From assembly GCA_902500755.1 (NCBI GenBank), contig CABVRV010000021.1:1-48034 (forward strand): a stretch of DNA of 48,034 bases. Reading direction: 5' to 3'. Of the stretch, positions 39,655 to 44,075 are shown piece by piece. How positions within the stretch are numbered: the stretch's first letter is position 1; each line of letters opens with the position of its first letter. Below the pieces are notes generated by a model that was not told where the DNA came from, ran no database searches, and worked only from the letters and a program-made list of their open reading frames with translations. The translations under genes and the position numbers were made by a program. Origin of the DNA: an uncultured Nitrospira sp. Its GTDB lineage: Bacteria; Nitrospirota; Nitrospiria; Nitrospirales; Nitrospiraceae.

Positions 39655-39960
39655 TCACGTATCCACCGATTGTGAGGCCCACTCGGTCAAGGCTTCCGCA
39701 TCTTCGATCACATCGATCGGGACCTCATAGAAGGATTTCAGCGTCTGTTTGGCATTCGGTCGAAACGGCTTCATGCCATGTTCCTTGTAACGATGCACAG
39801 TAGCCGTCGTGACTTTGAAGTAGAGACGGCCTTTGTGAATGATGCCAAAAATGATGGCTCGATGATAGAGGCCATACCCGCCGAACATGGCGCGTGCGGT
39901 CACATCAGGTAGATCGGCCAGCTGATCCAACACGAAGTCCTTAAATGAGCCCTGCTTCAT
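39655..39960 (-). CDS. TfoX/Sxy N-terminal domain protein
   Basis: A 101-residue protein matching the TfoX N-terminal domain: DFVLDQLADLPDVTARAMFGGYGLYH, then IFGIIHKGRLYFKV. The full TfoX of Proteobacteria has a second domain and activates competence genes with CRP; stand-alone N-domain proteins such as this one are widespread and of unknown function. ATG 39960 matches the usual family start; the frame is open up to 39999 but no better start is seen. Upstream gene order places it first in a two-gene unit with DUF488. Confidence 0.85.
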   Translation of the reverse strand: MKQGSFKDFVLDQLADLPDVTARAMFGGYGLYHRAIIFGIIHKGRLYFKVTTATVHRYKEHGMKPFRPNAKQTLKSFYEVPIDVIEDAEALTEWASQSVDT

Positions 39961-40206
39961 TACTCGGAACGATATAATCCCCTGTATCTTTTCCTGCAAG
40001 TGACAGAGAAAAAAAGATTCACCCGCAATGTTGTTCGTAATAAATGTTATGAGGTACGCATAATGTATTGATAAATAATAGAAGAAATATCAAAGCGTTA
40101 AAAATTTCCAAGGTCAACCGGTGTACGGCCTTGATTTTTGGTCTAAAGATTGCCTCGTTATGTCCAAGGCTGGGGGATTCTTGACTTCTAAAGTGGAGGT
40201 GATGCC

Positions 40207-40881
40207 GTGAAAATAGCGCGTCTACTCTTGTGTTGGATAATCGGGGTGATCTTTCTGGGGTGTGAACACATGGCAGAACACGGTGTCGGAAACGCTGTAA
40301 ACCTCGATCCCAATGACCCTCGTCCCGTTCTTCGTATTTCAATAGATGACGGGGATGAGATCGATCTGCTTCGACAACAACTCAAGGTCGAGCCCATCTA
40401 TGTCAAAGACGGGCAACTCTATCTCTCTGAGACCAAAGGGATTCGTGAAAAACTGGATGAATTGGGATATCGCCCAATACAAATGACACCACTCGATGTC
40501 TATGAGCGTGTCGTCAGAATTGAAAGACGAGGTGCTGAATCTGAAATGATACAGGTGGGCGTGGAGCTTATTAATCGAGAACCACACTACTGGATCGTAC
40601 GTGGAACGTTGGCGCAGTTGCGTGCACTTAAGCGACTCGGATATCAACTTGGCACGCTAGGGCCAAATGAACCAGCTCCGAGAGAGGTCCGCATTGTTGT
40701 CCCAACAACGAAGGATGTCCAGCAAGTCAACCAGTTGCATGTCGATATTTATAGTGTGGAAGAAACCAAATTGGGTATCATCATTTATGGGGGAGCATTC
40801 GATGCTCAAATCGATGAATTGAAAGCGCATCAGTATGTGGTGGAGCGCATGCCTGTTACCAAACAAGAGGTGAAGCCATGA
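40207..40881 (+). CDS. Lipoprotein with three propeptide-like repeats
   Basis: A 224-residue lipoprotein (lipobox IFLGC, C19). After a 20-residue linker it consists of three copies of a module of about 55 residues: 41-95, 102-153 and 161-216. Each starts with a V/LRI strand, has a central hydrophobic helix-strand part, then a helix ending in LDELGY, LKRLGY or LKAHQY and closes with (M/L)xP. Modules of this shape occur, as I recall, in N-terminal regions of secreted zinc carboxypeptidases and other proteases. GTG is the start, since GGAGGTGA precedes it and the overlapping ATG at 40202 meets TGA. It overlaps the carboxypeptidase start by 4 bases (ATGA). Probable role: chaperone, inhibitor or membrane tether of the peptidase; inference only. 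Confidence 0.8.
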   Translation: MKIARLLLCWIIGVIFLGCEHMAEHGVGNAVNLDPNDPRPVLRISIDDGDEIDLLRQQLKVEPIYVKDGQLYLSETKGIREKLDELGYRPIQMTPLDVYERVVRIERRGAESEMIQVGVELINREPHYWIVRGTLAQLRALKRLGYQLGTLGPNEPAPREVRIVVPTTKDVQQVNQLHVDIYSVEETKLGIIIYGGAFDAQIDELKAHQYVVERMPVTKQEVKP

Positions 40882-42734
40882 GAGCATTGATGATCGTCGC
40901 TGCATTACTGTTGCCTACGGGACTTGCCTTTGGCGCCATCGATTTTTCAAACTTTCATAATCCTACCCAAGTGCAAACAGAGATGGAGAATCTCGTATCG
41001 AGTTTCCCTACCCTTGCTAGGATAGAAACCATTGGTACATCGTTGGAAGGTCGTCAAATCAAGGCGCTCAAGATTTCCGACAATGTGAGCACCAATGAAC
41101 CAAATGAAGGTGATGTGATCTTTGTAGCGGCACACCATGCCAGAGAATGGATCAGCGTCGAGATGACGTTGTACCTCGCTGAGTATCTTTTGACTCATTA
41201 TGCGACCGATTCTCGGGTACGGGCGGATATGGACAATCTTCAAATCTGGATAGTTCCAATTGTCAATCCAGATGGAGTTGTATATAGCTGGTCAAGTTGG
41301 GCGGGGATATGCCCAACGGACCCTTCAAATCCTCGATACTGGCGAAAAAATCGCCGTGTGAATGGAGATGGAACATTCGGAGTAGATTTGAATCGGAATT
41401 GGGGATTCGAGTGGGGGTTAAACAGCGGATCATCGCCAAACACGAACAACGATACATATCGTGGGCCATCGGCATTTAGCGAGCCTGAGACTCAGGCGAT
41501 TAGGAACTTAGTCACCAATGCGACAAACCTCAAAGCTCTGGTCACCTATCACAGTTTCAGTGAATTGTTTCTCCGGCCCTGGGGGTATTCGACCAGTGAT
41601 CCCCCTGGTGAATCAACTCTCAAGTCAATTTCAGATCGTTCCATTGCGGCCATAGCCGCTGTTCATGGGCATACTTATTCTGACACCATCTGGTACACGG
41701 CTTCGGGAGAGACCACCGATTATTTGTGGGGTTCCAAACGCACTGCCGCCTTTACCCCAGAACTACGTCCCGGACCTGGTGGGGTGGTAGGATTCTGCCC
41801 TCCTCCCTCTGAGATTCTGCCAAGCAATCAAGAAAACCTTCCAGCCGCATTAGCATTGATCCATGACGCGGGGGCACGGGAAGTATGGATTAAAGATCAC
41901 CCAGCGGATACTGGCCAAGAGCCGTCGGCTGTTTGGACATCTAGCGGGTGGTCGCACGCGTTCTGGGAGAGCCCAGATATCTGGACCGTCCCAGCCACTT
42001 TGGATCAGGGAGCCACTGTAGATCTGCACGTCCGTATGCATAATCATTCTGGAGGTCCGGTTCATGATGTGACAGTCGATGTTTATTATACGGACCCCCG
42101 GATCTCTCTGGAATTTCCCAATCCAAACGCGACGCTCATTGGTAGTTGGACAGGAACGGTTCCGCCCGCGGGAAGAGAGGTGACGCTGCCGTGGAGCGTG
42201 CCGATCGGAACAAATAGTTGGGGAGAACGGCACTGGTGTGTCGGCGCTGTCATCAAACACGCAAACGATATGCCGCTCACGACCGAAGCACAGCGGACGA
42301 GCAATGTAGGCATTCGTAATTTCAACACAACAGAGATTATAGCGGCTGGTACGCTGAATATCGCGGCGACTAACTACCTGGCCGTTGCTTCAGAACTGTT
42401 AGTGAATATTGATCGTTCGTCAATTCCAGAAGGCTGGAAGGTTTTTCTTCCTGAGAAACCTATCGGTGAATACAAGGTGGGCGGGGTCAAAGGCATACAT
42501 CGAAAAGCGAAGCTCCTAGACTCGAAAGGCATTCTTCTTGAGCCCGGTGAAACGGTCAATATCCCAATTAGGGTTGAGCCGCCACATGACGTGGATCCTG
42601 ATAAGCCGGTTGACATTAGAGTACATGGGGCCTTAGTGCCGTTGGTGGCAGGTAAGCGGGATGTCGTTAACGGAAATGGATATACCTTCCGAGTGACGGG
42701 GAGGAAACCCTGTCGACAATGTGAGGATCGGTAG
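40878..42734 (+). CDS. Secreted M14 zinc carboxypeptidase
   Basis: A 618-residue metallopeptidase with a signal peptide (about 1-19, cleavage near AFGA). The M14 catalytic domain spans about 22-335. Zinc ligands are H87 and E90 (HHAREW) and H225 (TYHSF); the catalytic base is E295 (FTPELRPG); substrate carboxylate-binding residues lie in LNRNWG (N172, R173). There is no propeptide between signal and catalytic domain. The C-terminal 280 residues are beta-rich, with two Ig-like or CARDB-like segments (DLHVRMHNHSGGPVHDVTV; SIPEGWKVFLPEKPIG), ending in a Cys pair. The start overlaps the upstream repeat-lipoprotein gene (ATGA). This stretch is visibly more AT-rich than the efflux operon. Confidence 0.92.
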   Translation: MRALMIVAALLLPTGLAFGAIDFSNFHNPTQVQTEMENLVSSFPTLARIETIGTSLEGRQIKALKISDNVSTNEPNEGDVIFVAAHHAREWISVEMTLYLAEYLLTHYATDSRVRADMDNLQIWIVPIVNPDGVVYSWSSWAGICPTDPSNPRYWRKNRRVNGDGTFGVDLNRNWGFEWGLNSGSSPNTNNDTYRGPSAFSEPETQAIRNLVTNATNLKALVTYHSFSELFLRPWGYSTSDPPGESTLKSISDRSIAAIAAVHGHTYSDTIWYTASGETTDYLWGSKRTAAFTPELRPGPGGVVGFCPPPSEILPSNQENLPAALALIHDAGAREVWIKDHPADTGQEPSAVWTSSGWSHAFWESPDIWTVPATLDQGATVDLHVRMHNHSGGPVHDVTVDVYYTDPRISLEFPNPNATLIGSWTGTVPPAGREVTLPWSVPIGTNSWGERHWCVGAVIKHANDMPLTTEAQRTSNVGIRNFNTTEIIAAGTLNIAATNYLAVASELLVNIDRSSIPEGWKVFLPEKPIGEYKVGGVKGIHRKAKLLDSKGILLEPGETVNIPIRVEPPHDVDPDKPVDIRVHGALVPLVAGKRDVVNGNGYTFRVTGRKPCRQCEDR

Positions 42735-42777: not shown

Positions 42778-43635
42778 TCAAGTTGGTTTACGGCAAGCGA
42801 CCATTCGCACAGCAATCGGCAGCGCGATGATCGAGCCCTTTCGGTATTGCTCTGCCGTGTGAATGATGCGCTGCTTGGCCTCGGTCTGTTGTGATGGGCT
42901 TAGCTTCGCCCACAAATTTTGAATCGGTGCGGCAATATCCATCAGACTAGAGAAGTATTCGTCTGCCGTTGAAAACCGGACATCACCGAGAAATTCTTGT
43001 TCGGCGATGTCGACAAAGCCAGCTTGTTGCAGCATGCCGGCAAGGTCGCCGGGCTTCGCCAAACGGAAAATTCCCGGTGCTGACGGATCCGGTGGAGGGA
43101 GCTCAATGAATTGCTTGATGACGTCGATGGGGATTTTTAGATAAGGATTCTTTTCTGGTGCCGACCAGACTGCCGTAGACACCCAGGTATCCGGCTTGAG
43201 GATGCGGGCGATCTCGGCGACTGCTTTTGGTATTTCAGGTAAGAACATCAGGCAGAAGCGCGTCGTTACCGCATCGAAGGAAGCCTTCTCAAACGGCAAA
43301 GTTGTGACATCGCCTGTTCGGAATGTGACGTTCGAGAACTTCAGCGAAGCGGCCTTTCGCCTGGCGGCTTCGAGCATCTGCTCTGCCAGATCGATTCCGA
43401 TCACGCTGCCGCTCGGTCCGACCGTCTGAGCCGTCATCAGGGCCGGATAGCCGGTGCCCGATCCGAGGTCCAACACACGAAGACCGGCGCGCAGACGAGC
43501 ATCGCCGACGAGCCGATGGTTGAGAAACGCCATCTGCTCGTCGAAGAAGCGATCCCATGTCTCCCATCCACCGGCGACACGGTTCCAATCCTGGCGCTGG
43601 CCTTCGATGACTTGTTCAGGCGACAGCGGTGTCAC
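42778..43635 (-). CDS. Class I SAM-dependent methyltransferase
   Basis: A protein of about 285 residues with a Rossmann-type methyltransferase fold of the UbiE/COQ5-like group. SAM-binding motif I is VLDLGSGTGYPAL, motif II GIDLAEQML, with RTGDVTTLPF for the adenine-binding Asp region. The C-terminal part carries a lid (DLAGMLQQAGFVDIAEQEF). The substrate is unknown; small molecules such as quinone or sterol precursors are common. The start is taken as GTG 43635 because GAGGT lies 7-8 bases before it and further upstream the frame runs through the neighbouring lipoprotein gene. It lies 5 bases after that gene. Confidence 0.87.
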   Translation of the reverse strand: MTPLSPEQVIEGQRQDWNRVAGGWETWDRFFDEQMAFLNHRLVGDARLRAGLRVLDLGSGTGYPALMTAQTVGPSGSVIGIDLAEQMLEAARRKAASLKFSNVTFRTGDVTTLPFEKASFDAVTTRFCLMFLPEIPKAVAEIARILKPDTWVSTAVWSAPEKNPYLKIPIDVIKQFIELPPPDPSAPGIFRLAKPGDLAGMLQQAGFVDIAEQEFLGDVRFSTADEYFSSLMDIAAPIQNLWAKLSPSQQTEAKQRIIHTAEQYRKGSIIALPIAVRMVACRKPT

Positions 43636-43640
43636 GACAT

Positions 43641-44075
43641 CTACCTCAGGGTTTGCAGCGTCTGACGCAGCTCCGTGAGCTCCGCTACCAAGAGCTCCAG
43701 GTGTTGATCGCGTTGCGGCTGATCGTCCTTGAACTTCCACAGGCGTCGGAAAATCGCCTTGAGTTCTTTATTGTGTGTGACGGCCAGTGCATAGGTCGGC
43801 CGCTCTCTCACGGATTTTTCAACACAGCAGATGCTGTCGTTAATCGCATGAAACTGATTGTGGAGGTCGTCAAAAGCTTGATCGACTCCTTTGCCTCCCT
43901 TTGCGGCATTTGCCGAAGCTTCGGCCATGCTGGTCAGATTAATTACCGTTTCGAGACCTGTTGCCCCCTTTGCTTTCTCGGTAAATTCTTTCGCATGGGG
44001 ATAAAACAGGTAGCTGCAGCCGCTGGTGCTCAGCAGGAGAAGCGCTGCTACTGGGAGTATTGTCTTCCAACTCAT
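43641..44075 (-). CDS. Small helical lipoprotein of unknown function
   Basis: A 144-residue lipoprotein: signal peptide with lipobox STSGC (C20) followed by YLFYPHAKEF. The rest is predicted helical with a charged pattern and a CC pair (DSICCVEKS), and ends in a long amphipathic helix (LELLVAELTELRQTLQTL), possibly a coiled coil. I do not know the family. AAGGAGGGCAT directly before ATG marks the start. The methyltransferase gene begins 5 bases later, so both are in one transcript. Confidence 0.8.
   Translation of the reverse strand: MSWKTILPVAALLLLSTSGCSYLFYPHAKEFTEKAKGATGLETVINLTSMAEASANAAKGGKGVDQAFDDLHNQFHAINDSICCVEKSVRERPTYALAVTHNKELKAIFRRLWKFKDDQPQRDQHLELLVAELTELRQTLQTLR

Follow-up and report, generated by a model that had tools for sequence, protein, structure and literature searches.

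What does a lipoprotein encoded directly before a propeptide-less zinc carboxypeptidase do for its neighbour? The question is raised by a locus in a 48,034-nucleotide contig of an uncultured Nitrospira sp. (CABVRV010000021.1; the whole stretch is called the window below), in which the gene of a putative lipoprotein (LP) overlaps that of an M14 peptidase (CP). The pro-region of bacterial M14 enzymes keeps the proenzyme inactive, and a propeptide is usually lost after a single cleavage; in this locus, one seems to have been detached and turned into several copies. With moderate confidence, we read LP as the detached, triplicated prodomain of CP, most likely acting on it in trans, possibly as a chaperone, inhibitor or tether.

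CP matches the M14 zinc carboxypeptidase profile (PF00246 on residues 35-322, E 3.1e-77), and its closest solved structure is carboxypeptidase T (E 6.6e-57). The motifs HHARE, YHSFSEL and PELRP align with that enzyme, and residues His87, Glu90, His225 and Glu295, which we take to be the zinc ligands and the catalytic glutamate, are invariant across three aligned rows. The alignment starts at CP residue 24, paired with residue 7 of the mature carboxypeptidase T crystal chain. Because just a signal-like stretch (by eye) precedes the catalytic domain, which runs from about residue 24, no propeptide can be accommodated, in agreement with the first-pass annotation of this DNA. The gene limits and the four-base overlap given there also hold (Table 1): LP and CP form a two-gene unit on the + strand, joined by ATGA, with no + strand terminator-like site between the two genes.

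LP begins with Lys2, Arg5 and a hydrophobic stretch, followed by IFLGC ending at Cys19, to which the lipobox rule was applied by eye; the LP of a related locus, L004, reads LLTGC at this place. LP is a separate protein, as first described, and probably a lipoprotein at a membrane, its anchor being putative. It matched no family in Pfam (E up to 10) or NCBIfam. Pfam holds prodomain profiles for the S8 and M4 proteases, which had been named as possible kin; no separate test against them was made.

For comparison, 41 M14 loci were assembled from the window, the two close CP relatives (L003 and L004), matches in sampled genomes (7/395, 4/299, 11/192 and 5/185 genomes with an M14 match in four sets) and 14 of 26 plasmid records. 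Loci overlapping the window, L003 or L004 were left out, as were the other 12 plasmid records, L005, which has no peptidase domain, and L045, the second frame of the L047 gene. By reading, an N-terminal module is fused to the peptidase in 25 of the 41 (L038, L039, L048 and L049 among them). Several of these modules (e.g. L036, L040, L044) were assigned from their position and appearance and gave no match to the LP-module profile. The module lies on a separate upstream gene in eight (window, L003, L004, L009, L010, L028, L031, L042), and none was seen in the fetched flank of the remaining eight (L014, L017, L018, L019, L027, L029, L030, L037), the rest of those genomes not having been searched. 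In the fused forms the module occupies the usual propeptide position. It matched no Pfam or NCBIfam family in the four fused proteins tested.

Profile searches connect LP to these modules in both directions. With a hidden Markov model (HMM) built from LP modules only and run on 1,880 open reading frame (ORF) fragments of the window and loci (some loci overlap), the first seven non-training matches were all M14-linked modules (L021, E 5.4e-6; L049, 0.0025; L010, 0.025; L048, 0.049; L024, 0.33; L009, 0.64; L042, 0.78), of which only L021 is strong; an unrelated fragment followed at 1.6. Four of the seven are fused N-terminally to M14 domains and three lie directly upstream of propeptide-less M14 genes. 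Of 21 fused proteins, 16 gave a match with this HMM, and for 15 of these the best one lay in the N-terminal module, where 1.6 would be expected; about 10 of the 16 were in register by reading, and five proteins gave no match. Conversely, an HMM of eight fused modules ranked, among non-training fragments, L048 (2.8e-6), the window LP (3.4e-6), L049 (4.6e-4), the L004 LP (0.0012), L010 (0.0016), L009 (0.051), L035 (0.076) and L032 (0.23) before an unrelated fragment at 0.36.

A ten-row fused HMM placed the window LP at E 1.6e-4 to 1.7e-4 and the L004 LP at 0.061, with the best decoy at 0.61 (2,227 targets), and all 25 rows gave 0.01 for the window LP. The 21-row HMM separated LP poorly from shuffles: the window LP scored 0.043 and the L004 LP 0.055, with one shuffle between them at 0.05. 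When six HMMs were each run on 2000 shuffles, none reached the window LP in five of them and four did in the other (the first ten rows without L021); for the L004 LP, none did in five and 11 did in the HMM of the carboxypeptidase T clade only. L021, a Sinorhizobium protein, supplies much of the profile signal. Together, the searches support a kinship of the LP modules with the N-terminal extensions of M14 zinc carboxypeptidases, in line with the type of module (N-terminal extension of secreted metalloproteases) named in the first-pass annotation. Unlike the fused modules, which are part of the peptidase chain, LP lies on its own gene directly upstream of CP.

The predicted structure supports a division of LP into three modules. 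Its secondary structure elements (E, strand; H, helix) run E41-45 H49-59 E65-67 E70-74 H79-85 E91-93 in module 1, E100-106 H111-117 E120-124 E128-134 H135-143 and then a two-residue bridge in module 2, and E159-165 H168-176 E180-187 E190-197 H199-207 E211-214 in module 3. The prediction used a two-row alignment, and its best model has a predicted local distance difference test (pLDDT) score of 76.8, the other four ranging from 72.7 to 54.0. Weighing against the reading of LP as a repeat, its modules are no more alike than shuffles in BLOSUM62 local alignment: the inter-module score was reached by 116/500, 457/500 and 455/500 shuffles for the three pairings. The repeat is therefore visible in fold and profiles only. 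When the window LP is compared with that of L004, scores are 56, 116 and 126 for modules in corresponding positions and at most 16 for other pairings: the triplication is old.

The pro-region of animal procarboxypeptidases A and B is described, in the part of the source available, as an open sandwich of two helices and four strands that keeps the enzyme inactive (PMC8605224). The LP model shows an identical count and order of strands and helices in its modules. The animal pro-region differs in being fused, single and removed by trypsin, whereas LP is separate and triple, and the two show no sequence match. Propep_M14, presumably the Pfam name of the animal-type pro-region, matched neither LP nor the L004 LP at E up to 10 with HMMER filters on. 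PDB sequence searches with LP, a module alignment and a fused protein returned no prodomain, and no procarboxypeptidase chain was among the best 50 structural matches listed for the LP model, which excludes nothing.

The separate arrangement recurs in relatives of CP and in other M14 lineages. Relatives of CP, with identities of 64 and 68%, are found on two contigs of metagenome-assembled genomes (L003 and L004). In L004, an LP at 43% identity overlaps the CP gene by the identical 4 nt. In L003, a run of 100 N leaves only a 44-residue LP tail readable, which keeps the 4-nt overlap with CP; L003 was considered as a CP without LP, and this was rejected on the strength of that tail, which lies between the N run and CP. 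The two close CP relatives found thus both keep the pair, although N letters obscure part of it in one, which bears on the adjacency survey proposed in the first-pass annotation. The gene neighbours of the pair differ among the window, L003 and L004. In L004, a 707-residue protein is encoded upstream of the pair (L004:796-2919); by eye it resembles a C25-type (gingipain-like) peptidase.

Further away, L028, L031 and L042 have a single-module protein encoded before an M14 peptidase without signal peptide, with a 4-nt overlap in L031. These modules were called by position, look and weak mutual likeness (23-26% identity), L028 being further supported by a match to L049 and L042 by its weak LP-HMM match (0.78). 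The L028 partner was found in no other plasmid. The three loci, with Streptomyces and Caballeronia among their hosts, belong to one clade that also has the module fused, in L048 and L049 (Paraburkholderia). A second secreted split type occurs at L009:555-1430 and L010:572-1459, where partners of 291 and 295 residues precede propeptide-less M14 peptidases. Besides module-like parts, these partners have a HEAT-like stretch that PF13646 matches short of its cut-off (E 1.2e-5 and 3.7e-5); by eye, they lack a lipobox cysteine. The L009-type partner was found in 4 of 247 genomes, at full length in G149 and G186, the other matches covering the HEAT-like part only.

A phylogeny of the 41 catalytic domains places the fused carboxypeptidase T kin as the sister group of the window clade (89/90, not above the star threshold). 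These kin (L020, L022, L023, L024, L047) share a related catalytic domain and one N-terminal module of the LP profile family, presumably their propeptide; they differ from LP/CP in that the module is single and on the same chain as the peptidase. L047 also has its gene interrupted by a frame change (L045/L047). A single origin of the split type was rejected when all eight split peptidases were held as one group (approximately unbiased (AU) test, p 3.7e-87). Holding the five secreted split peptidases together was not rejected (p 0.123), and holding the other three together was marginal (p 0.038); all groups were named after inspection of the tree. The stand-alone module of L028 (Streptomyces) matches fused L049 (Paraburkholderia) by BLAST at E 1.7e-4, the best of 2000 shuffles reaching 0.38, and those of L031 and L042 gave no such match to L049. 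Taken with the L028/L049 match, the rejected constraint indicates at least two separations or fusions of module and enzyme; M14 modules came to lie on separate genes more than once.

A scan of genome contigs with LP alone as query found no relative, LP was not found in 58 other genomes of the genus and order, and plasmids gave nothing except one unrelated match at E 1. CP was not found in 116 other relatives at E 1e-20, and among 148 genomes sampled from the phylum, none but the source genome has an M14 match at E 1e-15 or better. We infer that LP and CP arrived horizontally. Positions 40001-42500 form the block of lowest G+C among 19 blocks of 2500 bases in the window (0.490; others 0.509-0.596), in line with a foreign origin of the pair.

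In the mechanism we propose, LP would be exported, lipidated and held at a membrane. The order of the two genes is that of module and catalytic domain in the fused forms; this order and the overlap suggest that LP is made first and in step with CP. CP would be exported by its own signal peptide, meet LP in the periplasm and be folded on an LP module. LP would then remain bound for a while, as a tether or by inhibiting CP reversibly, and CP would become active only once it leaves LP. Being separate and having three modules, LP could serve several CP molecules in turn; whereas a propeptide is cut off once, LP could be reusable.

How much of this LP does is a matter on which narrower readings compete, and the likelihoods we assign overlap, the rivals being parts of the favoured reading. 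It seems to us rather improbable that LP serves solely as a membrane-bound chaperone for folding or export and leaves the mature enzyme uninhibited. The adjacent gene, probable membrane anchor and secreted client suit such a role. Precedents are Lif, whose clients are lipases, and CpaB, which serves the metallopeptidase CpaA; both are described, in the parts of the sources available, as periplasmic partners that are anchored in the membrane and encoded next to the enzyme to be secreted (PMC3352829, PMC4713064). LP lies beside its client in the window, L004 and L003, but its N-terminal anchor is a lipobox by eye rather than a transmembrane helix, whereas Lif and CpaB have a transmembrane anchor, other domains, lipases or CpaA as clients and ties to type II secretion. 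LP gave no Pfam or NCBIfam match to a Lif or SRPBCC domain. Six secretin-like stretches of the genome all fail to exceed the GspD cut-off, which leaves type II export uncertain, and prodomain-like modules in triplicate would remain unexplained by a chaperone role alone. Somewhat less probable still, LP could be only a reversible inhibitor or a surface tether shielding the cell from a self-folding CP. Since M14 peptidases without any module in reach exist (8/41 loci), folding need not depend on a module, but these enzymes sit in other parts of the tree than the window clade. A precedent is SUB1-ProM of Plasmodium, a stand-alone subtilase propeptide-like inhibitor encoded near protease genes (PMC6993865). 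Like it, LP is a protein of its own with kinship to the prodomain of its enzyme's family. SUB1-ProM belongs to S8 rather than M14 and has a single module, and its inhibition was measured; the part of that source available mentions no lipid anchor, in contrast to the putative lipobox of LP.

It is unlikely that LP is an unrelated lipoprotein, for instance a substrate- or wall-binding protein sharing the operon, with module likeness reflecting a common ferredoxin-like fold, because the profile matches concentrate on M14-linked modules in both directions and module genes directly precede M14 genes in other lineages too. It is very improbable that a frameshift or an assembly error has split a single gene into LP and CP: the overlap of only 4 nt and the placing of the module before the catalytic domain, as in fused forms, would fit, but the identical overlap recurs in L004 and L003, and both proteins have separate N-terminal signals in the window and L004.

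A prodomain or foldase acting in trans is already known for other enzymes; what would be new in LP/CP is the M14 client, the tandem array and the probable lipid anchor. A limited full-text literature search (titles and abstracts) found no description of a detached M14 prodomain or of an array like LP, which does not show its absence from print. A more tentative possibility is that bacterial M14 prodomains form an undescribed detachable family moving between cis and trans, which here would have become a lipid-anchored membrane dock of three modules, used repeatedly for folding, storing and releasing several carboxypeptidase molecules and giving zymogen control without cutting. Fused L049 and split L028, and the fused carboxypeptidase T kin and split CP, offer natural pairs for comparing prodomain action in cis and trans. 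The domain goes unrecognised by Pfam and NCBIfam in the proteins tested, and annotators could read unnamed proteins encoded directly before M14 genes as likely partners.

Table 1. Positions of the features of the LP/CP unit in the window.
Feature	Position	Strand	Description or basis
GGAGG, likely ribosome-binding site of LP	40195..40199	+	read in sequence; 7 nt before GTG
LP	40207..40881	+	224-aa putative lipoprotein, three modules; GTG start
LP signal sequence and lipobox-like end, Cys19	40207..40263	+	by eye from translation
LP module 1, residues 41-93	40327..40485	+	predicted structure; LP-module HMM
LP module 2, residues 100-149, nearest to fused M14 modules	40504..40653	+	predicted structure; HMM matches
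LP module 3, residues 159-214	40681..40848	+	predicted structure; kept in L004 and L003 tail
ATGA, LP stop / CP start overlap	40878..40881	+	read in sequence; likewise in L004, L003
CP	40878..42734	+	M14 carboxypeptidase of 618 aa, propeptide absent
CP catalytic domain, residues 24-326	40947..41855	+	carboxypeptidase T alignment; PF00246 at 35-322
CP C-terminal region, residues 338-618	41889..42731	+	sequence comparison

The nearest gene-like ORFs flanking the unit, at 39655-39999 and 42778-43740, are both on the opposite strand. Beyond the 41 loci, an IMG/VR contig gave one M14 peptidase, a 300-residue protein without module (L061:2103-3005). After its catalytic domain, CP carries a tail of about 280 residues, of which residues 338-496 recur at 31% identity in a 389-residue protein without peptidase domain (L005:4785-5954). 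This part of the C-terminal region therefore appears to be a mobile domain.
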